DNA from: Pseudonocardia sp. SCN 73-27
GTDB taxonomy: Bacteria > Actinomycetota > Actinomycetes > Mycobacteriales > Pseudonocardiaceae
DNA: 64,000 nt
Assembly: GCA_001725415.1 (NCBI GenBank)
Contig: MEGH01000002.1
Location: 1 to 64,000 of the forward strand
Direction: 5' to 3'
Each line of letters starts with the position of its first letter. Within the stretch, counting starts at the first letter, position 1. The notes under the pieces were generated by a model. It searched no databases, was not told the DNA's origin, and worked only from the letters and a program-made list of their open reading frames with translations. Both the position numbers and the translations under genes were made by a program. Positions 27,598-63,262 of this stretch are shown here, piece by piece.

Positions 27598-27609
27598 TAA
27601 ATCGTTTAA
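27598..27609. promoter_or_regulatory. LacI-type operator, site 1
   Basis: TAAATCGTTTAA, 10 of 12 matches to the palindrome TTAAACGTTTAA, upstream of the minus-strand SDR gene. Confidence 0.6.
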
Positions 27610-27708
27610 TGGCAAGGTGAGGAGCCTGAGCCACGACCCGACGGTGCGGCCGGCCGGTTGACTGTGGTCGTGGTGGCGCTGTCTCCCCCGACTGTCAAGC
27701 TGGGCGTG

Positions 27709-27720
27709 GTAAACGTGTAA
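27709..27720. promoter_or_regulatory. LacI-type operator, site 2
   Basis: GTAAACGTGTAA, 10 of 12 matches, ending nine bases before the GTG start of the thioredoxin-fold gene, where a bound repressor would block initiation. Confidence 0.6.
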
Positions 27721-27729
27721 CATCGCAGC

Positions 27730-28338
27730 GTGGTTGCCTTCCTCTCGGTCGAGCGGGTTCGCCGGAGTCGTCTCGATGCGTTCACCTTCGACGAGTTCGT
27801 CGAGTTCGACAGCGACTATGGCCATGCCTATCGAGCGAACAGCGATGCCGTGAGGTTCACGCGGGACGAGGTGGCCCGGCTCGGCGCTGTGACCACCCCG
27901 GTCGACCTCTTGGCGGTGGTCGACCGAGCGTGCACGGATGTCATCGCGACGCTGCCCATCATGGTCGAGCTCGCCGCGCTGACGCCGGGTCTTCGGCTGT
28001 CGATCTTGCCGCGAACGGGCGCAGGTGCGGACCTTGCCGAGCTGTTCCGGCATGAGGGCGTGAGCAAGGTCCCGACGTACGCAGTCGTCGATGGCTCGGG
28101 AGAAGTCCTGGGTTTGATCGTCGAACGGACGGTTGCCGTCGGCGAACGGATCGCCGGCTTCGTGGCCGTGCTGGAGGCGGACGGGCTGTTCCCCGTACGG
28201 GAGAGTCAGCGGGCCGAGGTGATGCGCCGGGTCGTCGGCCACCGCTCGACCCTGCGCGAGATCGAACGGGCGAGCATCGTCGCCGCGGTCCTCCAGATGG
28301 TCGGCCGTCCGGACGGCGACGGGCCGGCCGGGGCGTAG
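27730..28338 (+). CDS. Thioredoxin-fold protein lacking CxxC
   Basis: 202-residue protein whose middle follows the pattern of thioredoxin_9-type proteins. ACTDVIATLPIMVELAALTP stands where the redox helix begins, then LRLSILPR, then LFRHEGVSKVPTYAVVDGSG with the cis-Pro strand. The usual CxxC is reduced to a single Cys (about residue 60), so a classic disulfide reductase role is unlikely. It may be a chaperone, a bacilliredoxin-like or a monothiol protein. GTG 27730 follows operator site 2 closely. It is transcribed towards the RibBA operon but has its own control element. No substrate can be named. Confidence 0.65.
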   Translation: MVAFLSVERVRRSRLDAFTFDEFVEFDSDYGHAYRANSDAVRFTRDEVARLGAVTTPVDLLAVVDRACTDVIATLPIMVELAALTPGLRLSILPRTGAGADLAELFRHEGVSKVPTYAVVDGSGEVLGLIVERTVAVGERIAGFVAVLEADGLFPVRESQRAEVMRRVVGHRSTLREIERASIVAAVLQMVGRPDGDGPAGA

Positions 28339-28341
28339 GAC

Positions 28342-28370
28342 TTGACGGTCCGGCAGACCCCTCCTACCCT
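28342..28370 (+). promoter_or_regulatory. Promoter of the ribBA catabolic operon
   Basis: TTGACG (28342-28347), a 17-base spacer and TACCCT (28365-28370) resemble a housekeeping promoter. The operator begins four bases after the -10 box, so the start of transcription would fall within it. Confidence 0.6.
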
Positions 28371-28374
28371 CTCC

Positions 28375-28386
28375 TTAAACGTTTAG
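28375..28386. promoter_or_regulatory. LacI-type operator, site 3
   Basis: TTAAACGTTTAG, 11 of 12 matches to the palindrome, between the -10 box and the RibBA start of the longest operon (28407-39020). Confidence 0.8.
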
Positions 28387-28406: not shown

Positions 28407-29675
28407 ATGAGGAAGGGGGGCGACATGCTGACAGGTCCGCGCGATCTCGATGGCGTCGTCGACGCAGCTCTGTCCCGGCTTCGGAGCGGAGGAATGGTCC
28501 TCGTCGTCGACGACGAGGACCGGGAGAACGAGGGCGACCTCGTCATGGCAGCCGAGTTCGCCACGCCGGAGAAGCTCGCGTTCATCATCGCGCACACCAG
28601 CGGGATCGTGTGCGTCGCGGTCACCAACGACCGCGCCGACGAGCTCGATCTCCCTCTGATGACCCGGAAAGGTGACGACCCCCGTGGTACCGCGTTCACC
28701 ATCTCGGTGGACAGACGTCTGGGTACCACCACCGGCGTCTCGGCTGCGGATCGGTCTGCAACCGTCCTGACGCTCGCCGACCCGTCGGCCCGCCCGCGGG
28801 ACCTGTGCCGGCCGGGTCACGTCTTTCCTCTGCGTGCGCGCCCGGGTGGCGTCCTGCAGCGTGCGGGTCACACCGAAGCCGCGGTCGACCTGTGCAGACT
28901 CGCCGGTCTCCCGCCGATCGGCGTCCTGGCCGAGGTGACCAACCCTGACGGTTCGATGGCGCGGTGCGCGGACCTGCGGGAGTTCGGAGCCCGCCACGAC
29001 ATTCCACTGATCGCGGTCGCCGACCTCGTCCGCTACCGCAACACGTTCGAATCCCTGGTGCACCGGGAGTCGAGCGGTCCCATCACCGTGAGCGATGACG
29101 AATGGACCGCTGTTGCGTACACGGCGACGACCGACGACGTCGAACACGTCGCGCTCGTCCTCGGCGACGTCGATCAGCGGTCGTCCGGCGACGAGACGCC
29201 GCCGATCCTCGTCCGCGTGCACTCCGAATGCCTGACCGGGGACGTGTTCGGCTCACGCCGGTGCGACTGCGGGGAACAGCTGGCTTCCTCACTGGCCCGC
29301 ATCGCCCGGGCCGGGCGGGGAGTGGTCGTGTACCTCCGCGGCCACGAGGGGCGCGGAATCGGCCTGGCGCACAAGCTGCGTGCCTACACCCTGCAGGACC
29401 GCGGGCTCGACACAATCGACGCCAACCTCGCCCAGGGACTCCCGGCTGACTCGCGTGAGTACGGCGTCGGCGCGCAGATTCTGCTCGACCTCGGAGTCCG
29501 GACCGTCCGCCTCATGACCAACAACCCGGACAAGGTCCGCGGCCTGTCGGGCTACGGGGTCGACATCGTCGAACGTGAGCCGGTCGACGTCCCGCCGAAC
29601 CCGGCGAACCTCACCTACCTCACGACGAAGCGTGAGCGGATGGCCCACATGCTGCGCCTGCCGGAGACCTCATGA
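28407..29675 (+). CDS. ribBA: Bifunctional DHBP synthase / GTP cyclohydrolase II
   Basis: 422-residue fusion making both riboflavin precursors. The RibB half (1-205) has VVDDEDRENEGDLVMAAEFA, VSAADRSATVLTLAD, RPGHVFPLRARPGGVLQRAG and HTEAAVDLCRLAG. The RibA half has the zinc Cys set in HSECLTGDVFGSRRCDCGEQ and then YLRGHEGRGIGLAHKLRAY and LLDLGVRTVRLMTNNPDKV. All key residues look intact. No ribD, ribE or ribH is nearby. It is the first gene of a catabolic operon with a LacI-type operator, so I infer an inducible second copy raising flavin supply for the flavoenzymes of this regulon. The ATG is preceded by GAGTCGATGAGG, a weak ribosome site. Confidence 0.93.
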   Translation: MRKGGDMLTGPRDLDGVVDAALSRLRSGGMVLVVDDEDRENEGDLVMAAEFATPEKLAFIIAHTSGIVCVAVTNDRADELDLPLMTRKGDDPRGTAFTISVDRRLGTTTGVSAADRSATVLTLADPSARPRDLCRPGHVFPLRARPGGVLQRAGHTEAAVDLCRLAGLPPIGVLAEVTNPDGSMARCADLREFGARHDIPLIAVADLVRYRNTFESLVHRESSGPITVSDDEWTAVAYTATTDDVEHVALVLGDVDQRSSGDETPPILVRVHSECLTGDVFGSRRCDCGEQLASSLARIARAGRGVVVYLRGHEGRGIGLAHKLRAYTLQDRGLDTIDANLAQGLPADSREYGVGAQILLDLGVRTVRLMTNNPDKVRGLSGYGVDIVEREPVDVPPNPANLTYLTTKRERMAHMLRLPETS

Positions 29676-29700
29676 TCCTCCACATCGACGGAGCTGCCCG

Positions 29701-31188
29701 GTGACGATCTCGCTTGTTCTCGATGTCGCTCAGGCGATGAACCCGGACCGCGTGGCCCTGGGCGCGGGCGCCGATACGCTCGACACGACCCGCCTCCGAC
29801 GCCTGGCTCACGGAGGTGCCTCTGTCCTGCGGGCACGTCGTGTCGGCACGGTTTCCTTCGTGGGGGTCAATTCGCCTGCCTTCCCCGTGACCCTGTTCGC
29901 GGGTGCGGTGGCGGCCGTGCCCGTCGCTCCGCTCAACTACCGGCTGGCGGCGGCGCAGCTCCGTGACCTGGTGGCCCGGCTGGACAGGCCGCTCGTGGTG
30001 GCGGACGAGGAGTTCGTTCCCGCTCTCGACGGCGTGGGCGCCGAGGTGGTGACGACCGGCCGGTGGCTGGAACTGGCGGCGGAGTCGGACGTCGACGACG
30101 GCCCTGGCCCGGACGATGACGACCCCGCGGTCCTGCTGTTCACCAGCGGTACGACGTCCGAGCCGAAATGCGTCATCCTCAGGCATCGGAACCTGGAGTC
30201 CTATGTGTTCGGGACGGTCGAGCCGGGTTCCGCCTCGGTCGAGGAGGCCGCCCTGGTGAGCGTTCCGCCCTATCACGTAGCAGGCGTGGGGACGGTACTG
30301 ACGAACCTGTGGGGGGGCCGCCGCCTGCTCTACCTGTCGAACTTCACGGCGGCCGAATGGGTCCGGACCGTGGTGGCCGAAGGCGTGACATTCGCGATGG
30401 TGGTGCCCACGATGCTCGCGAGGATCGTCGACGAGCTCGATGCCACCGGAGCCGCGGTGCCCGGGCTGCGCTCCCTCGCCTACGGCGGAGCTCCGATGAC
30501 CCCGGCGGTGCTCGAACGGGCCATGGACCTCATGCCGCAGGTGGACTTCGTCAACGCCTACGGACTCACGGAGACGAGCTCCACCATCGCCGTGCTGGGT
30601 CCGGACGACCATCGAACCGCCAGGGGCTCCGTCGACCCGGCGGTCCGGGCACGGCTGCGTTCGGTCGGCCGGCTGATTCCGGGCATCGAGGGTGCCGTCA
30701 GGGACGATGACGGTGCCGAGCTGCCACCCGGGCAGGCGGGTCAGCTCTGGGTGCGGGGGAGCCAGGTGTCCGGCGAGTACGCGGGGAGTGGCCCCGGGCT
30801 CGACGCGCACGGTTGGTTCGACACCCACGACCGCGCGTTCCTGGACGCCGACGGATTCCTCTACATCGAGGGGCGCACCGACGACGTCATCATCCGCGGC
30901 GGGGAGAACATCGCGCCGAGCGTCATCGAGGACGTCATCGCCGAACTGGCCGGGGTGTCGGAGGTCGCCGTGCTCGGCGTGCCCGACCCGGAGTGGGGTG
31001 AACGTATCGCCGCGGTGGTGGTTCCGCGGGCCGGCGTCCCGCTCACTGCGCTCGAGGTCGAGACGTGGGCGCGTGCCCGGCTGCGCGGATCGCGGACTCC
31101 GGACGAGATCCATCTGCGCAGCGAGCTCCCTCGCAACGAGATGGGGAAGATCGTTCGACGCTCGCTGCGCGCAGAGCTCGCCACCTGA
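29701..31188 (+). CDS. AMP-forming acyl-CoA synthetase
   Basis: 495-residue adenylate-forming ligase. Motifs: LLFTSGTTSEPKCVILRH (a divergent phosphate loop), VSVPPYHVAGVGT, NAYGLTETSSTIAV, GWFDTHDRAFLDADGFLYIE, RTDDVIIRGGENIAPS and the catalytic Lys in NEMGKIVRR. It activates a carboxylic acid to its CoA thioester; the acid is unknown. GTG 29701 is 25 bases after ribBA, in one operon with an amidohydrolase, a DUF35/thiolase-like pair, an esterase, a monooxygenase and a CoA-transferase. Confidence 0.9.
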   Translation: MTISLVLDVAQAMNPDRVALGAGADTLDTTRLRRLAHGGASVLRARRVGTVSFVGVNSPAFPVTLFAGAVAAVPVAPLNYRLAAAQLRDLVARLDRPLVVADEEFVPALDGVGAEVVTTGRWLELAAESDVDDGPGPDDDDPAVLLFTSGTTSEPKCVILRHRNLESYVFGTVEPGSASVEEAALVSVPPYHVAGVGTVLTNLWGGRRLLYLSNFTAAEWVRTVVAEGVTFAMVVPTMLARIVDELDATGAAVPGLRSLAYGGAPMTPAVLERAMDLMPQVDFVNAYGLTETSSTIAVLGPDDHRTARGSVDPAVRARLRSVGRLIPGIEGAVRDDDGAELPPGQAGQLWVRGSQVSGEYAGSGPGLDAHGWFDTHDRAFLDADGFLYIEGRTDDVIIRGGENIAPSVIEDVIAELAGVSEVAVLGVPDPEWGERIAAVVVPRAGVPLTALEVETWARARLRGSRTPDEIHLRSELPRNEMGKIVRRSLRAELAT

Positions 31189-31244
31189 TCGACGACCGGG
31201 CGCCGGTCGAACACCGAGACACCTGCCGGGCGGGCGGGGAAGGG

Positions 31245-32504
31245 ATGAACATCATGTCCGAACGCACACTCCCGAAGATCATCAGCGTGGACGACCACGT
31301 CGTCGAACCCCCGCATCTCTTCGAGCGCTGGCTGCCGAAACGGTTCCTCGACCGCGCCCCCCGGGTCGAGCGGCGCTGGATCGACATGGAGACCGACGCC
31401 TACAACGACACCGAGGTGGCCGAGGGCGAGGGCCTGCCGGCCGACGTGTGGGTCTACGGGGACTCGATGTACGTCCCGCGGCGGCCGGTCCTGATCCTCA
31501 AGGACGTCGAGACCTCCGCCGCGATGCGCGACAAGGAGCCCGTCACCTACGACGAGATGGACCCGGCCTGCTACGTCCCTGCAGAGCGGCTGAAGGCGAT
31601 GGACTCCCAGCACGTCGAGGCCTCGCTCGGGTTCCCGTCCTTCCCGCGCTTCTGCGGACAGGCGTTCAGTGAGCAGTACCGAGACGACCGCGAGCTCGGC
31701 CTTGCCTGTGTGCGGGCCTACAACGACTGGATGGTCGAGGAGTGGTGCGGGGACTCCGGGGGCAGGCTCATCCCCGCGCAGGTCGTGCCGCTGTGGGACG
31801 CGCAGCTGGCTGCGGACGAGGTCAGGCGCAATGCCGCCCGCGGCGTGCGTGCCGTGACCTTCAGCGAGATCGTCGGCCACCTCGGGTTCGCGACCATCCA
31901 CGACCGGAACTGGGACCCGTTCTTCGCGGCGTGTGAGGAAACGGGAACGGTGGTTTGCATGCACATCGGCTCGGCGTCGCTGATGATGCAGCCCCCGCCG
32001 GGCTCCCCGACGGTGGTGGTGCCCATCCTCCAGTTCGCCAACTCCTATGCGTCGATGGCCGACTTCGTCTTCTCGGGGGTCCTGGACCGGTTCCCGCAGC
32101 TCAAGCTGGCGTACTCCGAGGGCCAGGCAGGATGGATGCCCTACGCGATGGAACGGATGGACCACGCCTATCGTCACCACACGTGGGCGCTGGGTGAGCA
32201 GCGGATCGAGGAGCTGCCCTCAACCTACGTGCGGCGCAACATGTACGGCTGTGTGTTCGCCGACCGGCATGCCATCTCGCACGCCCGGGAGATCGGGACG
32301 GACAACCTGATGTTCGAGGTGGACTTCCCCCATGCGGACGGCCCGTATCCGAACACGTACGCCCATCTCGAGCGCCAGTTCGAGGGTATCGACGACGAGA
32401 TCACCTACAAGATCATTCGGGGGAACGCGATCCGGGTGTTCGAGCTCGGGTTCGACCGGGAGCTCGCCGGAGCCCCGACCGGCGACGTCCCGGTCACGGC
32501 CTGA
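31245..32504 (+). CDS. ACMSD-type amidohydrolase
   Basis: 419-residue TIM-barrel protein of the amidohydrolase_2 family. ISVDDHVVEPPHLFERWLP carries the first metal ligands, CMHIGSAS a central His and FEVDFPHADGPYP the distal Asp. Members include decarboxylases such as ACMSD and hydrolases of C-C or C-N bonds, so a decarboxylation or ring-opening step is possible. ATG 31245 follows GGGGAAGGG; ATG 31254 is an alternative. The stop overlaps the next gene (TGATG). A second, divergent member lies at 47369-48607. Confidence 0.85.
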   Translation: MNIMSERTLPKIISVDDHVVEPPHLFERWLPKRFLDRAPRVERRWIDMETDAYNDTEVAEGEGLPADVWVYGDSMYVPRRPVLILKDVETSAAMRDKEPVTYDEMDPACYVPAERLKAMDSQHVEASLGFPSFPRFCGQAFSEQYRDDRELGLACVRAYNDWMVEEWCGDSGGRLIPAQVVPLWDAQLAADEVRRNAARGVRAVTFSEIVGHLGFATIHDRNWDPFFAACEETGTVVCMHIGSASLMMQPPPGSPTVVVPILQFANSYASMADFVFSGVLDRFPQLKLAYSEGQAGWMPYAMERMDHAYRHHTWALGEQRIEELPSTYVRRNMYGCVFADRHAISHAREIGTDNLMFEVDFPHADGPYPNTYAHLERQFEGIDDEITYKIIRGNAIRVFELGFDRELAGAPTGDVPVTA

Positions 32505-32950
32505 TGTCGATGGGGGCGGTCGATGTCGGGACGACCTCCTCGTCCGGCGAAGGGGGCGGAAGACCTGTGCCGCGCCCGTCCGCCCTCACACGGCCGTTCT
32601 GGGACGCGTGCCGGGTGGGACGCCTGACCGTGCAGCGGTGCACCCGCTGCCAGGGGTACGTCTTCGTCCCGCAGGAGTTCTGCCGTCACTGCCGTTCGAC
32701 CACGCTGACCTGGGTCGAGACCGCGGGAACCGGGCGCATCGTGACCTACACGGTGGTGTGGCGCCCGCAGACGCCGGCGTTCACGGCGCCGTACGTCGTG
32801 GCCGTGGTCGAGCTGGACGAGGGATATCAGATGATCAGCAACATCGTCGGGAGCGATGCGGCCGGGGCTGCGGTCGGCGACCGGGTCCGGGTGCGGTTCG
32901 TCCGGGTGAGCGAGGCCGTCACCCTCCCGTGCTTCGAGCTCGCGGCATGA
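32504..32950 (+). CDS. DUF35 OB-fold zinc-ribbon protein
   Basis: 148-residue acyl-CoA-binding partner protein. The rubredoxin-like zinc ribbon is complete with four Cys (RCTRCQGYVFVPQEFCRHC), followed by an OB-fold (GRIVTYTVVWRP, PYVVAVVELDEG). DUF35 proteins pair with thiolase-like subunits, as in the ChsH2/Ltp2 retro-aldolase of steroid side-chain degradation. The start overlaps the amidohydrolase stop and its own stop overlaps the thiolase-like gene (ATGA), implying a stoichiometric complex with the latter. Confidence 0.9.
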   Translation: MSMGAVDVGTTSSSGEGGGRPVPRPSALTRPFWDACRVGRLTVQRCTRCQGYVFVPQEFCRHCRSTTLTWVETAGTGRIVTYTVVWRPQTPAFTAPYVVAVVELDEGYQMISNIVGSDAAGAAVGDRVRVRFVRVSEAVTLPCFELAA

Positions 32951-34077
32951 GTCGCGCGTCGCGGCGGGCGGTGATCATCGGCGCCTCCAACACCCGGCAG
33001 GCCCGGACCCTGCCGGGGGAGACGTCGGGGTCGGTCACTCTCGCAGCGACCCGGCTCGCGCTCGGGGACGCCGGCCTGGACCTCGCCGACGTCGACGGTC
33101 TCACCGCGCTGCCGGGTCTCGACTACGCCTCGGGATCCGACGCGTTCGGCTACGCACTCGGACTGCCGACCTTCTGGACCGGGCGCGCTGTGCCCGGTCC
33201 TGCCGCGGTTGTCGAGGCGGCCCAGGCGATCGAGTGGGGACTGTGCGACACGGTGCTGCTCGCCGGTGGCCAGGCCGGCCTCTACACCGATCGGGGGTCG
33301 GTGGCGCCGTGGACGAGACCCAGCCATGAGTTCATCGAGTGCTGGGGACTCATGACGCCGGCGGAATGGGCTCTGTCGGCGCGCGAGTACATGCACCGCT
33401 ATTCGGTGAAACCGGAACGGATCGCCTACATCGCTTCGGTGATCCGCAACAACGGATCCCGCAATCCGGAGGCCGTCTACCACGGCAGGGGCCCGTTCAC
33501 CCCCGACGACATCCTTGCGTCCCGCATGATCGCAGACCCGTACCACCTGCTCGACTGCTGCACGACGAGCGAAGGCGGCAGCGCCGTCGTGCTCACCACC
33601 GCCGAGCGCGCGCGGGACCTCGACCGGACAGGTGTCGAGGTGCTCGGTGGCGGGTGGGACAGCTGGGGCCCGTCCTACACCCATCCGCCGACGTACGACC
33701 GCGCCGCGACATGGGGCCGCAAAGCCGGCGCGGCTGCGTTCGCACGTGCCGGGATTTCCCGCGACGACGTCGACGTGTTCGAGTTCTATGACAACTTCTC
33801 CTGGGAGATCGTGCGCTACTTCGAGGCGCTCGGCTACTGCGAGGCGGGAGAGGGGCCGGACTTCGTGGCCGAGGGTGCCATCGAGGTCGGTGGCCGCTAC
33901 CCGGTCGTCACCGATGGCGGCACGATGTCGCACTCCCACACCGGTGAGTCGCAACGGCTGCAGCGGGTGGTCCAGGCGGTTCGCCAACTCCGCGGCGAGA
34001 GCGCCGCGAACCAGGTTCCCGATGCCCGGGTGGCGGTCGTGACCGTCGTAGGCGAAGTCGTTCTGCTCGGCGTGTAG
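32947..34077 (+). CDS. Thiolase-like (Ltp2-type) protein
   Basis: 376-residue thiolase-fold protein of the lipid-transfer/SCP-x-related group: LALGDAGLDLADVDGLTA, LLDCCTTSEGGSAVVLTT, ISRDDVDVFEFYDNFSWE and TDGGTMSHSHTGESQRLQ. At the position where thiolases carry the nucleophilic Cys the sequence is PGPAAVVEAAQAIEW, with no Cys. That fits a retro-aldolase or another non-thiolytic activity as in Ltp2. It is translationally coupled to the DUF35 partner. A second pair lies at 57422-59046. Confidence 0.87.
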   Translation: MSRASRRAVIIGASNTRQARTLPGETSGSVTLAATRLALGDAGLDLADVDGLTALPGLDYASGSDAFGYALGLPTFWTGRAVPGPAAVVEAAQAIEWGLCDTVLLAGGQAGLYTDRGSVAPWTRPSHEFIECWGLMTPAEWALSAREYMHRYSVKPERIAYIASVIRNNGSRNPEAVYHGRGPFTPDDILASRMIADPYHLLDCCTTSEGGSAVVLTTAERARDLDRTGVEVLGGGWDSWGPSYTHPPTYDRAATWGRKAGAAAFARAGISRDDVDVFEFYDNFSWEIVRYFEALGYCEAGEGPDFVAEGAIEVGGRYPVVTDGGTMSHSHTGESQRLQRVVQAVRQLRGESAANQVPDARVAVVTVVGEVVLLGV

Positions 34078-34102
34078 CGCGGGGCCGCCAGGGAGGTGGA
34101 GC

Positions 34103-35053
34103 GTGACCTATTGGGATCCGGAGCTGCGGACCGCACTGGACCGCAGCAGGGGCGAGCTGCCGGCGACGATCACGCCGGATCTGATCCCGCTGCTGCAGAA
34201 CGCATCCGTTCAGACGGACGACGCGGTGACCACCCTTGAACAACGCTTCGCGGTGCGGCTGGAGCAGCGCGCGGTCGGCTCGTCGGTCGATGTCGTCGTC
34301 GCGCGGCCCTCGGCCGTGAGGTCGCCTGCGCCGGTGATCTTCTTCGTGCACGGCGGCGGCATGGTCATGGGCAGCCCCGTGCACGGGCTCGATCTCGTCC
34401 TGCCCTGGGCGGTCGCAGCAGGGGCGGTGGTGGTGTCCGTGGGGTACCGCCTCGCCCCGCAACACCCGGATCCCGTACCGGCCGACGACTGTCGTGCCGC
34501 GCTGCTCTGGACGGTTGCCCATGCCGATGGGCTCGGCATCGATCCGGGGCGGATCGTCCTGGCGGGGCACAGCGCGGGGGGCGGGCTGGCCGCCGGGCTC
34601 GCGCTGCGGATGCGGGACGAGGGGGGCTTGAGGCTGCGCGGGCAGCTGCTCATGTGCCCGATGCTCGACGATCGGGAGAGTACGCCGTCGAGCGTGGAGC
34701 TGGACGGCGATGGGGTGTGGGACCGGACCTCGAACACGACGGGCTGGACCGCACTCCTCGGCGACCGCCGCGGCGGCCCGGACGTCGGTGTCCACGCCGC
34801 GCCGGCGCGGGCGACGGATCTGTCGGCCCTGCCGCCCACCTACATCGACGTCGGCTCGGCAGAGACGTTCCGCGACGAGGTCGTCGGGTTCGCCTCGCGC
34901 ATCTGGCACGGCGGGGGTGCGGCCGAGCTGCACGTGTGGCCGGGTGCCTACCACTGTTTCGAGATCGTCGCGCCGGAGGCGGGCGTCGCGCGGGCCGCGC
35001 TGGCGGCCCGGCGCGCCTGGGCACTCCGCGCGCTCGGACCCCTTTCCCGGTGA
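34103..35053 (+). CDS. HSL-family alpha/beta hydrolase (esterase)
   Basis: 316-residue esterase of the hormone-sensitive-lipase family. The oxyanion HGGG is in IFFVHGGGMVMGSPV, the nucleophile in VLAGHSAGGGLAAGLALRM, the acid near PTYIDVGSAETFRDE and the His in WPGAYHCFE. GTG 34103 follows a strong GGGAGGTGG site. Its place directly before a Baeyer-Villiger-type monooxygenase suggests it hydrolyses the ester product of that enzyme, a common pairing. Confidence 0.9.
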   Translation: MTYWDPELRTALDRSRGELPATITPDLIPLLQNASVQTDDAVTTLEQRFAVRLEQRAVGSSVDVVVARPSAVRSPAPVIFFVHGGGMVMGSPVHGLDLVLPWAVAAGAVVVSVGYRLAPQHPDPVPADDCRAALLWTVAHADGLGIDPGRIVLAGHSAGGGLAAGLALRMRDEGGLRLRGQLLMCPMLDDRESTPSSVELDGDGVWDRTSNTTGWTALLGDRRGGPDVGVHAAPARATDLSALPPTYIDVGSAETFRDEVVGFASRIWHGGGAAELHVWPGAYHCFEIVAPEAGVARAALAARRAWALRALGPLSR

Positions 35054-35118
35054 GCCGTCGCTCCTCCGGGAGCCCAGTAGCCCGGCATCGTGCCGGACCT
35101 CGTATCGCGGAGGCGAAC

Positions 35119-41281: not shown

Positions 41282-41293
41282 TTAAACGTTTGA
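41282..41293. promoter_or_regulatory. LacI-type operator, site 4
   Basis: TTAAACGTTTGA, 11 of 12 matches, 25 bases upstream of the gamma-glutamyltransferase ATG. On the minus strand a TAGCAT -10-like element precedes it by two bases. Confidence 0.75.
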
Positions 41294-41373: not shown

Positions 41374-41391
41374 CAACAAGCCGAGGTGAGC

Positions 41392-44026: not shown

Positions 44027-44071
44027 TCCCGGGACAGTAGCGTCACTGGAACGGCTGGCCTAGGTTAATCC

Positions 44072-52150: not shown

Positions 52151-52162
52151 TTATACGTTTTG
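52151..52162. promoter_or_regulatory. LacI-type operator, site 9
   Basis: TTATACGTTTTG, 9 of 12 matches, close to the start of the minus-strand acyl-CoA ligase. Confidence 0.5.
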
Positions 52163-52301: not shown

Positions 52302-52313
52302 CTAAACGTATAA
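52302..52313. promoter_or_regulatory. LacI-type operator, site 10
   Basis: CTAAACGTATAA, 10 of 12 matches, upstream of the transporter operon on the plus strand. Confidence 0.6.
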
Positions 52314-52636
52314 GGTCACGGCTCACCAGCTAGGACAGGCAGCGGCGACCGCTCGACGGCAGGTCGAGCTCGCCGACAGGAACCGGTCACCGGCACGGAG
52401 GCCACTGATGCAGGCTGCGACGTCGATCCAGCCGTGTCATTCGGGTCGAGAGCCACCCGGGTGTCCTGACGCCGACAACGAGAACCCTTCGCGCCGTGCG
52501 CGACCGGCACAGCGAACCGATCCGGGTTCCCCATCCCGAACGCACGACGAACCAGCAACGGAGGCTGGCCCGAGATGACACCACAGAGCACGTTCACGTC
52601 TGCAACGGAGCACGGCGTGCGGCAGAGGGCCGCGCG

Positions 52637-53827: not shown

Positions 53828-53946
53828 CAGCAGCCGGGGTCCCCGGGCCGGGGCCGGCGACGACGGTCGAGAGACGTCGCTTCCGGTGATTCCGCGGCCC
53901 GGGGCACCCCGCGCCAGGGTCGAGCTCGTCTGAAGAGGAGCCACGC

Positions 53947-56676: not shown

Positions 56677-57425
56677 TGGGCGTCGACACCGAGGTTGTGC
56701 GGCTGTCCGAGGTGGAGGCCGCCTACGGGCGCACCACCGTCCTGCGCGACATCGACCTCACGATCCGGCAGGGCTCGGTCGTGGGACTGCTGGGAGCCAA
56801 CGGGGCCGGCAAGACCACGTTGCTCCGGGTCGTCGCCGGGCTCCTCCGCCCGCGGGCCGGGCAGATCCTGCTCGACGGCCAGGACGTGACCACGACGGCG
56901 CCCCACCTTCGCAACCGCGCGGGAGTCTGCCTCATCCCGGAGGGGCGGGGGATCTTCCGGTCGCTGACCGTGCGCGAGAACCTGGTGCTCTTCCTGCCCC
57001 GGCACGCCTCGCCGCGCGACGACATCGAGGCGGGTGTCGAGGCGTTCCCCATCCTGGGCAAACGGCTCTCGCAGACCGCGGGGAGCCTCTCCGGCGGCGA
57101 GCAGCAGATGCTGGCGGTGGCCAAGGCCTTCCTCACGAGGCCGAAGGTCGTGCTCGCCGACGAGCTGTCCCTCGGCCTTGCCCCGAAGATCATCGACGAG
57201 ATCTACGCCTCGCTGCGGACGCTGCGTGACGAGGGCATCACCCTTCTGATCGTGGAGCAGTACGTGCACCGCATCCTGGAGTTCGCCGACGACATCAACG
57301 TGCTCTCGCGCGGCCGGGTCTCCTGGTCGGGTGCGGCGTCGGAGATCGACGAGGAGTCCTTGCTCACCAAGTACCTGGGCGACCAGGAGGTCGAGGTCCT
57401 CAGCGGCGCCCGAGGGCCCGAGTGA
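56676..57425 (+). CDS. LivF-type ABC ATPase
   Basis: 249-residue ATPase: LLGANGAGKTTLLRVVAGLL, LIPEGRGIFRSLTVRENL, LSGGEQQMLAVAKAFLTRPK, VLADELSLGLAPKIIDEI and IVEQYVHRILEFADDINVLS. The Walker B region reads VVLADELSLGLA where LLDEPSLGLA is usual. It pairs with the ATPase half of the preceding fusion. Coupled on both sides by short overlaps. Confidence 0.93.
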   Translation: MGVDTEVVRLSEVEAAYGRTTVLRDIDLTIRQGSVVGLLGANGAGKTTLLRVVAGLLRPRAGQILLDGQDVTTTAPHLRNRAGVCLIPEGRGIFRSLTVRENLVLFLPRHASPRDDIEAGVEAFPILGKRLSQTAGSLSGGEQQMLAVAKAFLTRPKVVLADELSLGLAPKIIDEIYASLRTLRDEGITLLIVEQYVHRILEFADDINVLSRGRVSWSGAASEIDEESLLTKYLGDQEVEVLSGARGPE

Positions 57426-58609
57426 GGCACTCGCGCGCGGCGGCTGAGGCGTCGGAGGGCGCGATCGTCGGGCTCGGTATGACGGTCGCGGCGCGGGCCG
57501 ACGGGCGGTCGGCCGCGGACTTCGCCGCCACCGCGGTCCGGGCCGCGGTCGCCGATGCCGGCCTGCGGATGGAGGACGTCGATGGCCTGATCGTGTCCTG
57601 CGGGCGCGGCGGCGGGGTCGACATCACGCTCGCCCGTGAGCTTGGCCTCGGTGACCTCGGCATCCTCACGCAGATGGCCCAGGCCGGCTCCACCGCGAAC
57701 GCCCAGGTCCAGATGGCGTGCCTGGCGGTGCGGGGCGGCCTCGCCTCGACCGTTGTCTGCGTCCATGCCGACGCGCCGCTGCAGCCATCGGTGCGTACGG
57801 GGGAGACCTACCGCCGGCCCACCCCTGCGGTTGGGGTGGGGCTGCCCGCGCTCGCGCTGCCGGGCGCGCCCCGAACGGCCACGGCGGGATATGCCCTCGC
57901 CGCGCGCCGGCACATGGCGCACTACGGCACGACCAGCGAGCAGTTCGGCGCTGTCGCGGTCGCACAGCGCGAGTGGGCCTCGCGGAACCCGCTCGCGCGC
58001 TTCCGCGAGCCGATGACGATCGCCGACCACCAGGCGTCGCGGGAGATCGTGGACCCGCTCCGGCTCTTCGACTGCTGCATGGTCAGCAACGGCGCCGTCG
58101 CGGTGGTCGTGACCTCCGCGGACCGCTCGCACGACCTCGCCCGTCCCGGTGTCCACGTCTGGGGATGGGCTCAGACCCATCCCAGCTACCGGATGGCCCG
58201 GGACTCGTCCTGGGGGCTGCGGACCGGCGCCGCGGTGGCCGGGCCGAAGGCGATGAAGAGGGCGGGTGTCGGCCCGGACGACATCGACGTGCGGCAGATC
58301 TACGACTGCTTCACATACACCGTCCTCGTCACCCTCGAGGATTACGGGTTCTGCGAGAAGGGTGAAGGAGGCGCACTCGCCGAGAGCGGTGCGCTCGCTC
58401 CCGGGGGCCGGCTTCCTACGAACACGGGTGGAGGTCAGCTGTCGAGCTTCTACCTGTGGGGGATGACCCCGTTGTCCGAGGCGGTGCTGCAAGTGCGGGG
58501 CACGGCCGGTGACCGCCAGCTCGATCGTCACGACGTCGCGATCGTCAGCGGCAACGGCGGGATCCTTGCCCACCACAGCACCCTCGTCCTGGGCGCGGGT
58601 CCCCGATGA
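57422..58609 (+). CDS. Thiolase-like (Ltp2-type) protein (second)
   Basis: 395-residue thiolase-fold protein: AVADAGLRMEDVDGLIVSCG, LFDCCMVSNGAVAVVVTSAD, VGPDDIDVRQIYDCFTYTVL and PTNTGGGQLSSFYLWGMTPL. The thiolase nucleophile position reads QAGSTANAQVQMACLAV with no Cys at the expected place, as in the first paralogue (32947-34077). GTG overlaps the LivF stop, and its own stop overlaps the DUF35 ATG. It is probably the catalytic half of a retro-aldolase or acyl-transfer complex. Confidence 0.85.
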   Translation: MRHSRAAAEASEGAIVGLGMTVAARADGRSAADFAATAVRAAVADAGLRMEDVDGLIVSCGRGGGVDITLARELGLGDLGILTQMAQAGSTANAQVQMACLAVRGGLASTVVCVHADAPLQPSVRTGETYRRPTPAVGVGLPALALPGAPRTATAGYALAARRHMAHYGTTSEQFGAVAVAQREWASRNPLARFREPMTIADHQASREIVDPLRLFDCCMVSNGAVAVVVTSADRSHDLARPGVHVWGWAQTHPSYRMARDSSWGLRTGAAVAGPKAMKRAGVGPDDIDVRQIYDCFTYTVLVTLEDYGFCEKGEGGALAESGALAPGGRLPTNTGGGQLSSFYLWGMTPLSEAVLQVRGTAGDRQLDRHDVAIVSGNGGILAHHSTLVLGAGPR

Positions 58610-59046
58610 TCGAACCCGGAGAACCGACGTTCCGGGTGGAGCGGGACGAGGTCTCGGCGACCTTCTTCGACGCCGCCCGGGAGAACCGCCTGCTGCTGCG
58701 CAAATGCGTTGTCTGCGGGCGGTTGTACCCGCCCTACCAGCTCCGGTGCGTGGACGGTGACGAGTTCACCTGGCAGCCCGCCGCCGGCAGGGCGGTCCTC
58801 CGGTCGTGGGCGGTCGACCACGGTCGTCCGCTGACCCCCGAGCTCGCGCCGCCGGACGGCGGGCCCGCGCTCGTCGGGATGGTCGAGCTCGACGAAGGCC
58901 CGTGGATGAGCGTGGCGCTCGTCGGCACGCCACCCGGGGCGTTGCACGAGGGCCTCGAGATGACAGTCGAATTCGTCGCGCTCGGAGGTGGCGAACCGGT
59001 CCCCGTGTTCGCGCCGGCCGGCGCAGTGGAAGGAGAGCTCCGATGA
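58606..59046 (+). CDS. DUF35 OB-fold protein (second)
   Basis: 146-residue DUF35 protein partnering the thiolase-like protein before it. The zinc ribbon LRKCVVCGRLYPPYQLRCVDG has only three of the usual four Cys, the last being replaced, so zinc may be weak or absent. The OB-fold follows (LVGMVELDEGPWMSVALVG). Overlaps on both sides show tight coupling with the thiolase-like gene and the enoyl-CoA hydratase. Confidence 0.85.
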   Translation: MIEPGEPTFRVERDEVSATFFDAARENRLLLRKCVVCGRLYPPYQLRCVDGDEFTWQPAAGRAVLRSWAVDHGRPLTPELAPPDGGPALVGMVELDEGPWMSVALVGTPPGALHEGLEMTVEFVALGGGEPVPVFAPAGAVEGELR

Positions 59047-59822
59047 CAGATGTCCCCGACGACGTGGTCCTCGTGGAGAGGCGGGGTCAGGTCGGCATCA
59101 TGACCCTGAACCGGCCGAGGGTGCACAACGCGGTCAGCCGAGAGGTGACCGAGAAGATGGCGGTCGCGATCGAGACGTTCGAGGCCGACGACGACATCCG
59201 GGTCCTGGTCGTCACCGGCGCCGGTGAGCGGACCTTCTGCGCAGGCGCGGACCTCAAGGCCCTCATGACGTTGCGCCCCAGCGTGCGTGAGCTGGGCGGG
59301 TTCGCGGGCATCACGGCCCGCGCCTTCCGCAAGCCGATCATCGCTGCGGTCAACGGCACCGCGGTCGGCGGCGGGATGGAGATCTGTCTCGCCTGCGACC
59401 TCGTCGTGGCCGAGGAGCACGCCTCCTTCGGGCTGCCGGAGGTCCGTCGGGGCATCATCGCCGCCGCGGGCGGCGTGGAGCGGCTGACGAGACGGCTTCC
59501 CCCGGCCGTCGCGATGGAGATCATCCTGACCGCCGAGCGCGTCGGGGCCCGGCGGGCACTCGAGCTCGGCCTGGTCAACCGGGTGGTCCCGCGCGGGACC
59601 GCGGTGGAGGCCGCGCTCGAGCTCGCCGCTCTGATCGCCCTGGGTGCGCCCATGGCGATCGAGTACTCGAAGGCGGTGGCCCGGACGGTGATGGCCCAGG
59701 GCGAGGCCGAGGCGCTCGCCGAATGGGCGGTGCTGCGCCAGGCCGTCATGGACAGCGATGATGCGGACGAGGGTGTCCAGGCCTTCGCCGAGAAGCGGGC
59801 GCCCCGATGGACGGGGAAGTAG
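59043..59822 (+). CDS. Enoyl-CoA hydratase/isomerase
   Basis: 259-residue crotonase: VGIMTLNRPRVHNAVSREV, GERTFCAGADLKALM (oxyanion hole), AAVNGTAVGGGMEICLACDL and FGLPEVRRGIIAAAGGVERL. The two hydratase Glu positions are both Glu, so water addition to an enoyl-CoA is likely. It hands a 3-hydroxyacyl-CoA to the SDRs or to the thiolase-like/DUF35 pair. Overlaps the lactonase gene by 16 bases. Confidence 0.92.
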   Translation: MTDVPDDVVLVERRGQVGIMTLNRPRVHNAVSREVTEKMAVAIETFEADDDIRVLVVTGAGERTFCAGADLKALMTLRPSVRELGGFAGITARAFRKPIIAAVNGTAVGGGMEICLACDLVVAEEHASFGLPEVRRGIIAAAGGVERLTRRLPPAVAMEIILTAERVGARRALELGLVNRVVPRGTAVEAALELAALIALGAPMAIEYSKAVARTVMAQGEAEALAEWAVLRQAVMDSDDADEGVQAFAEKRAPRWTGK

Positions 59823-60697
59823 CCCTGCGCGGCGGAGCGGCCCGGCTCGAGCTCGTGGCCGAGAACCTGCAGTTCGCCGAGTGTCCCCGCTGGCACGACG
59901 GGAAGCTTTGGTTCTCCGACATTTTCGCGCGTCGGGTGATCCGCCTGGACGAGACGGGGCGGGCCGAGACGATGCTGCAGCTCCCCGAACCCGACCTGCC
60001 GGCAGGTCTCGGGTTCCTCCCGGACGGCCGACTGCTCCTGGCGAACCTCGCCCGGCCCGTCGTGCTCCGGCTCGAGGCCGACGGCAGCGTGTCGACCCAT
60101 GCGGACCTGACCGGGCTCGCAGTCGGACCGCTGAACGACATGGTGGTCGACCGGTGGGGCCGGGCGTACGTGGGCGCGAGCGGCACCGACGACTTCGACG
60201 CGCCTCGACCGCTCGCCGGGACGGGCAGCATCATCCGGGTCGACCCGGACGGCACGGCCCGCGTCGTGGCGTCGGAGATGGACGCCCCCAACGGTCCGGT
60301 GATCACCGCGGACGGGGGGCGGTACATCGTCGCGTCGGTCCCCGCCCGACAGCTCACCGGGTTCGACATCGGGCCCGACGGATCGCTGTCACGCCGCCGG
60401 ATCTGGGCCGACCTCGCCCCGGGAACCTCCGACGGCCTCACGGTCGACGCAGAGGACGGCGTGTGGACCTGCTGGCCCCAGGGCGAGCAGTGCCGGCGGG
60501 TGGTCGAGGGTGGCGAGGTCACGGACGTGATCACCCTGCCGGGCCGGATGCCGGTGGCTGCGTGCCTGGGCGGGGCGGACGGTCACAGCCTGTTCGTCCT
60601 GAGCATCACCACGGGCCGCGCCAGCATCGCCGAGCGGCGGAGCCGGTCCGTCGTCGAGAGGAGCCGGGTCGACGTCCCGGCGGGAAGGGCAGGCTGA
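59807..60697 (+). CDS. SMP-30/gluconolactonase-type lactonase
   Basis: 296-residue six-bladed propeller of the SMP-30 family. Metal ligands are visible as Glu in FAECPRWHDGKLWFSDI, Asn in GPLNDMVVDRWGRAYVG and Asp in GTSDGLTVDAEDGVWTCWPQ, with APNGPVITADG contributing another Asn. These calcium or zinc enzymes open lactones. In a cluster with two Baeyer-Villiger-type enzymes, hydrolysis of a lactone product is the natural role (inference). Confidence 0.88.
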   Translation: MDGEVALRGGAARLELVAENLQFAECPRWHDGKLWFSDIFARRVIRLDETGRAETMLQLPEPDLPAGLGFLPDGRLLLANLARPVVLRLEADGSVSTHADLTGLAVGPLNDMVVDRWGRAYVGASGTDDFDAPRPLAGTGSIIRVDPDGTARVVASEMDAPNGPVITADGGRYIVASVPARQLTGFDIGPDGSLSRRRIWADLAPGTSDGLTVDAEDGVWTCWPQGEQCRRVVEGGEVTDVITLPGRMPVAACLGGADGHSLFVLSITTGRASIAERRSRSVVERSRVDVPAGRAG

Positions 60698-60700
60698 GGC

Positions 60701-62008
60701 ATGCAGACAGGCATCACCTTCGGGCTGCAGCTCCCGCGGCCGTGGGGTCCCGGTTCGGAGCGTCGTCTGTTCGCAGAAGCCCTCGACCAGGTCGAGCTCG
60801 CGGACCGGCTCGGGTTCGACCACGCCTGGACCGTGGAGCAGCATTTCTTGGAGGAGTACTCACACTCCTCGGCTCCGGAGCTGTTCCTGGCTGCGGCGAG
60901 CCAGCGCACGTCCACCATCCGGCTCGGGCACGGCGTGGTGCTCACCCCGCCCGGGTACAACCATCCGGCGCGGGTCGCGGAACGGATCGCGACACTCGAC
61001 CTGGTATCGGGAGGCCGCGTCGACTTCGGATTCGGGGACTCGAAGTCCCGCGTGGAGCTCGAGGGCTTCGGCGTGGACGCGGGTGCGCGGCGCGCGATGT
61101 CGCTGGAGGCCGTCGAGCAGATCGCGGACATGATGGCGCTCGAGCCGTATCCGGGACACCGCGGCGAGCACTTCGCCATGCCCGCGCGCAATGTGGTGCC
61201 CAAGCCCGTGCAGAAGCCCCATCCGCCACTGTGGATCGCCTGCTCCGACGACGCAACCGTGCAGCTCGCGGCCCGCCTCGGCGTCGGCGCCCTCGCGCAC
61301 TCGTTCTTCGACGCAGCCGAGGCCGCGCACGTCGTGGCCGGGTACTACGAGACCTTCAGGCGGGAGTGTGTGCCCATCGGGCACGTCGTGAACCCCGCCG
61401 TCGCGATGGTCGACCCGTTCTACTGTCACGAGGACGGGGCGACCGCGACGGCAGTGGGGATGCGTGCCCACGGTTTCCGCACCTACGCGGCACGGCACTA
61501 CTACTCCTTCGGCCGGCACCGGCCCGGGTACACCGATCTCGCGGCCAACGCGGAGGTCGTCCGCGCCGAGCTCGGCGGGGACGTCCCTCTCCGTGGCGGG
61601 CATGCGATCGGCACTCCTGGCGAGATCGCCCAGCACCTCAGGGGGCTGGAGGCCGCCGGCGTCGATCAGGTGATCCTCACCCATCAGGCGGGGGGCCTGA
61701 CCCACCAGCAGGTGTGCGAGTCGCTCGAGCTGTTCGCCCGCGAGGTCCGGCCCGCCCTGCTGCCCGGGGAACAGGAAAGGCTGCGGAGGCGCGAGGCAGA
61801 GCTGGCTCCCCACATCGCCGCCGCGCTCGAGCGGAAGGCCCGTCGCCAGGCACCGGGCCGGGACGCCGTGCCGCTCTGCGACGCCTACGGCCTGTCGCGT
61901 GAGACGGACGTCGAGCTGGTGGGGCTGGCCGACATGAGCGAGTCCACCCGCGCGGCCATCCTCGAGCTGAACCGGTTGAAGGCGATCGCGCTGCGCCTGG
62001 AGCCGTGA
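60701..62008 (+). CDS. Luciferase-like flavin monooxygenase
   Basis: 435-residue LLM protein of the bacterial luciferase/alkanal monooxygenase type: LADRLGFDHAWTVEQHFLEE, SSAPELFLAAASQRTSTIRL, HGVVLTPPGYNHPARVAERI and LDLVSGGRVDFGFGDSKSRV. The EQHF and YNHP motifs are those of FMNH2-dependent monooxygenases. The C-terminal 90 residues are charged and helical. It would need reduced flavin, consistent with RibBA in the regulon. Last gene of the transporter operon; it converges with lacI-type gene ten bases away. Confidence 0.88.
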   Translation: MQTGITFGLQLPRPWGPGSERRLFAEALDQVELADRLGFDHAWTVEQHFLEEYSHSSAPELFLAAASQRTSTIRLGHGVVLTPPGYNHPARVAERIATLDLVSGGRVDFGFGDSKSRVELEGFGVDAGARRAMSLEAVEQIADMMALEPYPGHRGEHFAMPARNVVPKPVQKPHPPLWIACSDDATVQLAARLGVGALAHSFFDAAEAAHVVAGYYETFRRECVPIGHVVNPAVAMVDPFYCHEDGATATAVGMRAHGFRTYAARHYYSFGRHRPGYTDLAANAEVVRAELGGDVPLRGGHAIGTPGEIAQHLRGLEAAGVDQVILTHQAGGLTHQQVCESLELFAREVRPALLPGEQERLRRREAELAPHIAAALERKARRQAPGRDAVPLCDAYGLSRETDVELVGLADMSESTRAAILELNRLKAIALRLEP

Positions 62009-62018
62009 GCGCCGCGGG

Positions 62019-63116
62019 TCAGCGGTCGCGTGCGGGACCGGTCGAGCCGCGGGGGATGTAGACCGCCGAGTCCTCGACGATGACGTCCGTGATGGGTTTT
62101 CCGTCGAGGGCGTCGAGCATCGCGGCGGCCGCTGCCCGGCCGATCTTGTCGTAGTCCGACCTGATGCTGCTCAGCGGCGTGCGCAGCAGGGGAGCGGCGT
62201 CGGAGTCGGACAGTGCGACGACGGACAGGTCCTCCGGTACCCGGATCCCGAGCTCCTCGCAGACGGACAAGATGTCCAGTGCGACGGCCATCGTCGCGAA
62301 GATGGCCGTCGGTGGGCGCCGCTTGTTCAGCGTCGCGATCAGCAGGTCCCGCACCTCATCGCGGCTGTGGCCGGCTTTGAGGTCCAGCCACTTGACACGG
62401 CGGGCGGGCACGAACAGCTTGTGCGTGAAGATGTCGCGGTTCACAGCGAATTCAGCGACGACGCGATGACCGAGTGCGGTGAGGTGTGAGATCGCCGCCT
62501 CGTAGGCCGGGCTGCCGTTCATGGAAACCAGCGGCAGACTCGTGCAGTCGTCGCTGCGGAAGCCGACCGCTATGACCGGGACCCCCGCCTGCTCGTAGAG
62601 CGACAAGGAGTCTGCCTGCTGGGCGTTCCAGTAGAACAAGCCGTCGACGCGGTGGGCGATGAAGCGCCGCAGCAGGGTGTCGATGTCGACCCCGGAACTG
62701 GTCACGACGGACAGCAGGACGTTGTACCCCACCGACTCCATCTGCCCGATCATGCTCTGGAACACGGTCATCAGCTCGTTGCGCGGATGGCCGTCGAAGT
62801 TCACCGCCATGCCGATCGTCATCGACCTGACGTTGCGCATGCTCCGTGCCGCGAGATTGGGGATGTACCCGAGCTCCTTCGCCGCGGCGAGGACGCGCTC
62901 GAGGTTCTCCGGCGAGACCGGCAAGCCGTTGAGCGCCTTCGATACCGTCGCGGTCGAACACCCCGCGGCCGCGGCAACGGCGTGAAGGGTGGCCGCTCGC
63001 CTGCCGGTGGTCGTGCTCCTGCGGGTCCGGCGTGCCGGACCGTCGGCGCCCGCAGGAGAGGTCTCGGCGCCGTCGCCGGCGGCTACGGCGCCGGCATCAC
63101 CAGGAGGTCTCGCCAC
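62019..63116 (-). CDS. LacI-family repressor, likely regulator of the cluster
   Basis: 365-residue LacI/GalR regulator with an unusual 40-residue Ala/Arg-rich leader. The HTH (about 43-66) reads TLHAVAAAAGCSTATVSKAL, and the hinge is YIPNLAARSMRNVRS, with Met where PurR/LacI have the operator-wedging Leu. The periplasmic-binding-fold effector domain follows: DGLFYWNAQQADSLSLYEQ, VAEFAVNRDIFTHKLFVPAR and VPEDLSVVALSDSDAAPLL. LacI proteins bind palindromes with a central CG, as in TTAAACGTTTAA. A site (63142) precedes its own GTG start, so autoregulation is expected. It lies between the transporter operon and the second monooxygenase. Confidence 0.9.
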   Translation of the reverse strand: MARPPGDAGAVAAGDGAETSPAGADGPARRTRRSTTTGRRAATLHAVAAAAGCSTATVSKALNGLPVSPENLERVLAAAKELGYIPNLAARSMRNVRSMTIGMAVNFDGHPRNELMTVFQSMIGQMESVGYNVLLSVVTSSGVDIDTLLRRFIAHRVDGLFYWNAQQADSLSLYEQAGVPVIAVGFRSDDCTSLPLVSMNGSPAYEAAISHLTALGHRVVAEFAVNRDIFTHKLFVPARRVKWLDLKAGHSRDEVRDLLIATLNKRRPPTAIFATMAVALDILSVCEELGIRVPEDLSVVALSDSDAAPLLRTPLSSIRSDYDKIGRAAAAAMLDALDGKPITDVIVEDSAVYIPRGSTGPARDR

Positions 63117-63141
63117 TGCGGGAGCATAGCAATGTTCGGGC

Positions 63142-63153
63142 GTAAACGTGTCA
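63142..63153. promoter_or_regulatory. LacI-type operator, site 11
   Basis: GTAAACGTGTCA, 9 of 12 matches, 25 bases upstream of the LacI-family gene start. Confidence 0.55.
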
Positions 63154-63250
63154 CCTCCCTGGTCAGGACCGAGAGATACGCGTCGGCTCCTTTCGCCTCG
63201 GGGCGGGCCGTGTTGCGCGTCGTCGGCGGAGGAGGTCGGGACAGTTGTCG

Positions 63251-63262
63251 GAAAACGTTTAA
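63251..63262. promoter_or_regulatory. LacI-type operator, site 12
   Basis: GAAAACGTTTAA, 10 of 12 matches, in the same intergenic region, on the side of the plus-strand monooxygenase. Confidence 0.6.

Follow-up and report, generated by a model that had tools for sequence, protein, structure and literature searches.

The window analysed here is a 64-kb stretch of DNA, C2:1-64000, from the genome of Pseudonocardia sp. SCN 73-27 (6.95 Mb in 99 contigs; hereafter the home genome). It carries catabolic genes, a gene for a LacI-family regulator (62019..63116, minus strand) and repeated copies of a 12-bp palindrome with a central CG, TTAAACGTTTAA, which are predicted to be the operators of this regulator. 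The sequence-only reading had described twelve 12-bp sites that match at 9-11 of 12 positions; all of them are present, and their scores agree. Gene models were longest open reading frames (ORFs) picked by codon-position G+C and then adjusted by hand, and transcription units were assigned from position alone. For each orientation of a site, the best -35/-10 pair was compared with 200 single-base shuffles at p 0.05. The predicted operators in the window and the genes that they precede are as follows:

27598..27609, minus strand: before the short-chain dehydrogenase/reductase (SDR) gene 26688-27578 (minus); 2 mismatches; 20 bp from the longest-ORF start and 44 bp from ATG 27554.
27709..27720, plus strand: before the thioredoxin_9-domain gene 27730-28338; 2 mismatches; no convincing promoter.
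28375..28386, plus strand: before the RibBA operon; 1 mismatch; TTGACG-17-TACCCT, with 4 bp from the -10 to the operator.
41282..41293, minus strand: before the gamma-glutamyltranspeptidase (GGT) gene 39431-41257 (minus); 1 mismatch; TAGCAT 2 bp upstream, promoter p 0.185.
41362..41373, plus strand: before the genes of a 139-aa protein and a glyoxalase; 1 mismatch; TTGACC-18-TAGACT 3 bp upstream.
44072..44083, no strand assigned: common to the aldehyde dehydrogenase (ALDH) gene 42590-44026 (minus) and the N,N-dimethyl-4-nitrosoaniline (NDMA)-type alcohol dehydrogenase (ADH) gene (likely start 44126, plus); 2 mismatches; no convincing promoter.
47217..47228, minus strand: in the -35/-10 spacer before the SDR gene 46335-47207 (minus); 2 mismatches.
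47304..47315, plus strand: before the PtmU3-like amidohydrolase-family gene 47321/47369-48607; 1 mismatch; TTGACC-18-TACGCT 2 bp upstream.
52151..52162, minus strand: abutting the Shine-Dalgarno sequence of the AMP-dependent ligase gene 50500-52140 (minus); 3 mismatches; no convincing promoter.
52302..52313, plus strand: on the -10 before the ABC-transporter operon (from 52496); 2 mismatches.
63142..63153, minus strand: before the LacI gene itself; 3 mismatches; no convincing promoter.
63251..63262, plus strand: in the -35/-10 spacer before the Baeyer-Villiger monooxygenase (BVMO) operon starting at 63420; 2 mismatches.

At up to three mismatches, the window contains 13 matches to TTAAACGTTTAA compared to 0.48 expected, and the maximum among the 100 dinucleotide shuffles that served as background was 3; the match at 44065 overlaps that at 44072 and is not counted separately, leaving 12 distinct sites. 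All four places with one mismatch in the whole home genome lie in the window. At up to two mismatches the home genome has 12 places, ten in the window in addition to C2:76157 and C91:2334, so that 11 of the 12 fall within 49 kb of one contig, one of them 12 kb past the window. A genome scan, proposed as a check by the sequence-only reading, thus finds the good matches concentrated here. Relaxing the threshold to three mismatches gave 47 places (16 in C2:27.6-78.3 kb and 31 elsewhere), compared to 19 for a reversed control pattern, and seven of the ten places that match the 10-bp core with at most one mismatch are in the window. Among the 32 palindromes composed of five A/T, CG and five A/T, each searched at up to two mismatches, TTAAACGTTTAA matches 11 times in 26-81 kb and never in 0-26 kb; the two runners-up have 4 and 3 matches, three others have 1 and the rest 0. 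Swapping the centre of TTAAACGTTTAA to GC, AT or TA left no match in this comparison.

The sites are also distinctive in position. Only 4.8% of 26.6-81 kb is intergenic according to our gene models, and yet 14 of the 16 listed matches (at up to three mismatches, as far as 78245) are wholly intergenic; the match at 44072 is half intergenic, and that at 78245, inside a gene, is not intergenic at all and is probably due to chance. Site 44072 and the longest-ORF start of its ADH gene overlap; 43 bp downstream there is a TTG (44126) with a 6/6 Shine-Dalgarno match, and the site is intergenic if the gene starts at this codon. The set runs past the window to C2:76157, which has a weaker neighbour at 76182. 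The central CG, which the sequence-only reading took as a LacI-type hallmark, is found in 13 of 13 sites in a symmetrised count, in line with the 1173 regulators with a central CG counted in a published survey of the family (PMC4052901). Clear conservation ends at 12 bp, as the adjoining positions are mostly G or C and hard to separate from a background of 70% G+C.

Two further observations concern matches outside the cluster. The sole place with at most two mismatches off the cluster, C91:2334-2345 (TTGAACGTTGAA), lies directly 3' of TACAGT and before a gene judged glyoxalase-like by eye; it shares the geometry of the cluster sites and is possibly a distant regulon member or the site of another regulator. 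Moreover, TTCAACGTCTAC, read on either strand, occurs exactly five times among the 3-mismatch matches (C4:274341, C8:128133, C27:83744, C44:29334 and C64:8211), and is perhaps a separate motif.

The 365-residue LacI-family protein is the predicted repressor of all these sites. It matches PF00356 with 43.2 bits (cut-off 27) and the sensor domain PF13377 with 76.7 bits (cut-off 26.5), and aligns over its full length with solved LacI-family proteins and in its DNA-binding part with, for example, CcpA. Its score against the NCBIfam PurR model is 71.9 bits, compared to a cut-off of 501. The self-site at 63142 sits 26 bp before the longest-ORF start of the gene. No other helix-turn-helix (HTH) regulator was found among the Pfam-scanned proteins of 26.7-81 kb, the set to which all Pfam, HTH and Rieske statements on the cluster refer and from which short ORFs were mostly left out; a second regulator within the cluster was rejected on this result. 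The nearest other HTH protein noticed is a LuxR-type response regulator (19382-20026, minus strand) to the left of the site cluster, where a GAF histidine kinase (17080-19086, plus strand) and a phosphoketolase/acetate kinase pair (20587-24068, plus strand) also lie in motif-free DNA.

Few close homologues of the regulator were found in the genomes searched. At E <= 1e-40, it was found in 3 of 149 genomes, the home genome included; the other two are the congeners G017 (7.4 Mb) and G023 (6.6 Mb). The LacI protein of G017 is 58% identical to ours, and G017 has a second, paralogous copy with 44% identity. In G023, the homologue (48%) covers only residues 134-364 and has one internal TGA, and no DNA-binding domain was seen by eye in the three forward frames of the ~420 bp before this remnant. 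At E <= 1e-60, the search returned the home genome only, among 298 genomes of the order and 394 of the class, with larger groups sampled evenly. Among the matches listed from named genomes (at least 80 relatives with 25-32% identity) there was no orthologue, with 2 sites of at most one mismatch in 1.52 Mb. Searches of plasmids with the LacI, BVMO and amidohydrolase proteins gave only matches below 60% identity.

The sites follow the regulator in these congeners. All four G017 places with at most two mismatches (C1:1430237, 1430517, 1431916 and 1457378) fall in a 27-kb stretch with the LacI gene at 1437.2 kb between them, and scanning 80 kb at up to three mismatches added a fifth at 1400790. 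The surrounding 1.40-1.48 Mb encodes homologues of RibBA (73%), BVMO (74%), the double CoA-transferase (63%), GGT (51%), the 139-aa protein (84%), glyoxalase (52%), thiolase (77%), SMP-30 (71%), a luciferase-like monooxygenase (LLM) (67%) and a GMC oxidoreductase (71%), in addition to an amidohydrolase homologue with 84% identity over 237 of 438 residues. In both the home genome and G017, RibBA follows the same arrangement of promoter and operator. By contrast, G023 has no place with at most two mismatches in its 6.6 Mb and none with at most three in the 60 kb that surround the LacI remnant. The comparison of relatives suggested by the sequence-only reading therefore turned out in its favour, and its choice of the local LacI-family gene, with a site of its own, as the predicted regulator is supported by conservation in G017, apparent loss in G023 and genome-wide clustering. 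Genus-wide, 9 of 62 genomes have a place with at most one mismatch, in a scan that a core with both outer letters altered escapes; the exact core TAAACGTTTA among these places is confined to the home genome and G017, the two genomes with a close LacI covering the DNA-binding domain, and the other seven have one or two variants.

Separately, the amidohydrolase homologue of G017 (C1:1459141-1460387) is split over two frames, for which sequencing error and decay are indistinguishable. Five congeners with no LacI match at E <= 1e-40 (G048, G034, G030, G022 and G010) each have one TGAAACGTTTAA on either strand, which is possibly the site of a different conserved regulator.

The paralogue of G017 bears on DNA-binding specificity. 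The recognition helix CSTATVSKALNG and the hinge PNLAARSMR are identical in the home and G017 LacI proteins, whereas the paralogue has the recognition helix LSLMSASRALSG and the hinge PNVAARRMR; the helix reads STATVSKALNG in the former and SLMSASRALSG in the latter. The 60 kb around the paralogue contains one 3-mismatch match to TTAAACGTTTAA and none better. A perfect 14-bp CG-centred palindrome, TGGTAACGTTACCA, lies 81 bp before the paralogue ORF and overlaps the longest-ORF start of the divergent gene. It has this one exact copy in G017, all other places having 2 mismatches, and as a single site it supports a switch of specificity, short of being conclusive.

Where a core promoter is recognisable, the sites overlap or adjoin it. 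Sites 28375, 41362 and 47304 and, in G017, sites 1430517 and 1457378 have a perfect TTGAC-17/18-TANNNT promoter whose -10 lies 2-6 bp before the operator. Of the 15 home orientations, six have a promoter pair better than the shuffles, as have two of the five in G017. Operators over the core promoter fit repression.

The units adjoining the sites continue to ~81 kb, and the cluster is consequently larger than the 36 kb first claimed. In our assignment, the probable regulon comprises ~44 genes in ~15 units by position, over ~50-54 kb with 13-14 predicted operators. The site array described by the sequence-only reading up to 63.4 kb is thus present, with the extent to be enlarged; likewise, its single local LacI repressor is supported, and its ~30 genes become ~44. 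The genes, with presumed operon borders, are listed below:

26688..27578, minus strand: SDR (Pfam).
27730..28338, plus strand: thioredoxin_9-domain protein (Pfam).
28407..39020, plus strand: presumed eight-gene operon of RibBA, acyl-CoA ligase, PtmU3/DitZ-like amidohydrolase-family protein, OB_ChsH2_C (DUF35) protein, thiolase, Abhydrolase_3, type I BVMO and double-domain CoA-transferase III.
39431..41257, minus strand: GGT.
41386..42479, plus strand: 139-aa protein with no Pfam match and glyoxalase-family protein.
42590..44026, minus strand: ALDH.
44126..46221, plus strand: NDMA-dependent-type ADH and F420-type LLM oxidoreductase.
46335..47207, minus strand: SDR.
47321..50414, plus strand: PtmU3-like amidohydrolase-family protein, APH-type kinase and SDR.
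50500..52140, minus strand: acyl-CoA ligase.
52496..62008, plus strand: presumed eight-gene operon of substrate-binding protein, fused LivH-M-G type protein, LivF type ATPase, thiolase, OB_ChsH2_C protein, enoyl-CoA hydratase, SMP-30 family protein and LLM oxidoreductase.
62019..63116, minus strand: LacI-family regulator (PF00356 and PF13377).
C2:63420-64922, plus strand (63420..64000 in the window): BVMO-like gene that opens a presumed eight-gene operon to ~C2:73.9 kb, one member of which has no Pfam match.
Flanking 76157: LLM and P450 genes on one side; SDR, zinc-type dehydrogenase, GMC oxidoreductase and a second zinc-type dehydrogenase on the other, to ~81 kb.

Two proteins of the cluster combine several domains in one chain. 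The CoA-transferase family III protein (36627-39020, plus strand) has two domains within ~797 residues, and its G017 homologue (63%) is of the same size. The branched-chain-type ABC transporter protein encoded at 53947-56676 (plus strand) combines two permease stretches and an ATPase in 909 residues; G023 has a homologue of near full length with 31% identity.

Compared to a sugar regulon, the targets are of a different kind: enzymes of CoA esters, BVMO, LLM, dehydrogenases and similar proteins, the sole sugar-reminiscent target being the SMP-30/gluconolactonase-family gene. One BVMO of the cluster is similar to monooxygenases of steroids, cyclohexanone and phenylacetone; a second gives a 576-residue alignment with PDB 5mq6, which we take to be a polycyclic-ketone monooxygenase. 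The amidohydrolase-family (PF04909) proteins 31188-32504 and 47321-48607 (both plus strand) match PtmU3 and DitZ. By eye, both retain DxH, H, E and DxxHx(D/E), aligned with the dinuclear site of AibH2 and PtmU3; in the 47321-48607 protein, the last ligand position is Glu as in PtmU3. The dinuclear metal site of AibH2 and PtmU3 has been described (PMC7782822, PMC10811679), and PtmU3 is reported as a β-hydroxylase of diterpenoid biosynthesis that acts on CoA-ligated substrates (PMC7782822). A role of these proteins as thioesterases was considered and rejected, as PtmU3 is described as a non-heme dinuclear hydroxylase (PMC10811679, PMC7782822). Together with the acyl-CoA ligases, thiolase/OB_ChsH2_C pairs, CoA-transferases and SMP-30 gene, these similarities make a polycyclic, terpenoid- or steroid-like compound our best guess for the substrate. 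RibBA, as a supplier of flavin, would fit the many flavin enzymes of the cluster. That all these genes serve one undescribed route, as the sequence-only reading put it, we infer from gene content.

We propose that the local LacI protein is a pathway-specific repressor that acts through TTAAACGTTTAA-type operators, a reading to which we give a probability of about 0.88 on comparative sequence evidence. A LacI dimer would bind the operators that overlap the core promoters of ~15 units, its own gene included, at positions immediately 3' of the -10, between the -35 and the -10, or over the -10. The bound protein would block RNA polymerase until the substrate or an intermediate releases it, the releasing ligand probably being polycyclic and terpenoid- or steroid-like, either as such or as the CoA thioester. 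A broader proposal is more tentative, and we rate its chances somewhat below even: that the sensor of a LacI protein has switched from sugars to such a compound or CoA ester and controls ~44 genes over 54 kb, including RibBA and predicted dinuclear amidohydrolase-type oxygenases, in a system that among congeners has been kept, changed in specificity in the paralogue, and lost.

Several points weigh against the proposed repressor. In 9 of 15 home orientations and 3 of 5 in G017, the promoter pair is no better than the shuffles, with p >= 0.4 at 27709, 44072+, 52151, 63142, 76157+ and 76157-, and p near 0.2 at 27598, 41282 and 44072-. The hinge residue that enters the minor groove is usually Leu in the LacI family; in PNLAARSMR this position is Met. 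The conserved core is only 12 bp, compared to mostly 16-22 nt in published LacI motifs (PMC4052901). Thiolase homologues with 76% identity occur both in the G023 stretch and in the stretch of the G017 paralogue, neither of which has good sites, as do some other homologues, and the latter also has an SMP-30 homologue (57%); gene content alone therefore fails to track the sites. In addition, only two genomes carry the system, so that the comparative evidence amounts to one pair and one apparent loss.

It is unlikely, and still to be reckoned with, that LacI binds these sites as a co-repressor-dependent repressor or a partial activator in the manner of CcpA or PurR. The AAACGTTT core resembles the PurR operator. 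Co-repressor-dependent members such as PurR and CcpA are described in the family (PMC4052901). On the other hand, an operator over the -10/+1 region or the spacer, wherever a promoter is recognisable, is in a repressing position, and a local LacI gene with its own site is typical of local LacI regulators according to the same survey (PMC4052901).

A rather improbable alternative is that some other regulator, whether TetR-like or of a different family and encoded within or outside the cluster, binds the palindrome, with LacI a mere neighbour or target. Other dimeric HTH families also suit palindromes of this length, and a TetR gene lies ~1.3 kb from the LacI gene of G017. This TetR protein is conserved at 79% beside the LacI remnant in the site-free G023, whereas in the home genome a relative of just 31% identity sits on a different contig; the sites do not go with TetR, which was rejected as the binder on this distribution. 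None of the home-cluster proteins scanned with Pfam gave a TetR match. The sites instead go with a LacI protein that has its DNA-binding domain. Moreover, a CG centre is typical of LacI operators in the surveyed regulons (PMC4052901), and the LacI paralogue has a CG-centred palindrome of its own.

We consider it very improbable that the 12-mer functions as part of a promoter or leader, for instance one that serves an alternative sigma factor. At most genes it does lie tens of bp or less from the start codon, and an ordinary promoter is not recognisable at 9 of 15 orientations; yet it is palindromic, its placement relative to -35/-10 varies between after the -10, in the spacer and on the -10, and only 12 places with at most two mismatches exist in 6.95 Mb. 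Finally, chance or compositional enrichment, or a dispersed repeat, has a negligible probability, being contradicted by the window count, the genome-wide clustering that already refuted it, the G017/G023 sites and the control palindromes, while the flanks of the sites, which are not conserved, rule out a repeat with conserved flanks.

Assigning this array to a LacI repressor would have practical value. The operator list proposes which of the ~44 genes share one pathway, whose substrate should become apparent from the inducer that lifts repression. So large a regulon over a route rich in BVMO, luciferase-like and predicted dinuclear oxygenases offers a handle on that route. The system would also provide an inducible expression tool for actinobacteria, one with a short operator and with a paralogue that differs in specificity.

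The arrangement resembles local repressors of the LacI, RbsR and MalR type, with an HTH and a periplasmic-binding-like sensor domain, an even palindrome centred on CG, a self-site and operators at promoters. In the survey counts, even palindromes belong to 1251 of 1303 regulators (1173 of them with the central CG noted above; even motifs of 16-22 nt), and 72% of LacI-family regulators are self-regulated (PMC4052901). It differs from the surveyed regulons in its ~44 genes and ~15 units, its non-sugar targets, its 12-bp core and the Met in the hinge: 1198 of 1288 LacI regulons (93%) have at most 20 genes, and carbohydrates are the subject of 176 of the 182 groups to which a pathway was assigned (PMC4052901). 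Like γ-proteobacterial PurR, it joins a core of the AAACGTTT type with many operons under one LacI-family protein. PurR is by contrast described as a global regulator, mainly of purine biosynthesis, that uses co-repressors (PMC4052901). The sequence relation to PurR is at family level only.

Among catabolic clusters, the dit clusters for resin acids (diterpenoids) hold ligases and a thiolase, and DitZ presumably belongs to one of them. Similar to the dit clusters of Pseudomonas and Paraburkholderia, the present cluster is large and has genes for acyl-CoA ligases and thiolases, as well as for a close match to the PDB entry named DitZ; the resin-acid dit cluster of P. abieticivorans is reported to span 34.6 kb with 24 of 24 expected genes (PMC10710418). 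It differs in its wealth of BVMO and LLM enzymes, in a comparison that was not made gene by gene against the dit proteins, and no Pfam match to a ditA1-type Rieske/ring-hydroxylating dioxygenase was seen in the cluster proteins that were scanned. In the one library searched, and as judged from titles and the beginnings of abstracts, no publication turned up that describes a LacI regulator for a catabolic route of this kind; a search on DitZ also gave nothing relevant. Altogether, the predicted system appears to be an ordinary LacI device, its operator array and LacI assignment well supported by comparative evidence, set over an unusually large and non-sugar regulon, as the LacI regulons described in the survey are mostly small and sugar-related (PMC4052901).

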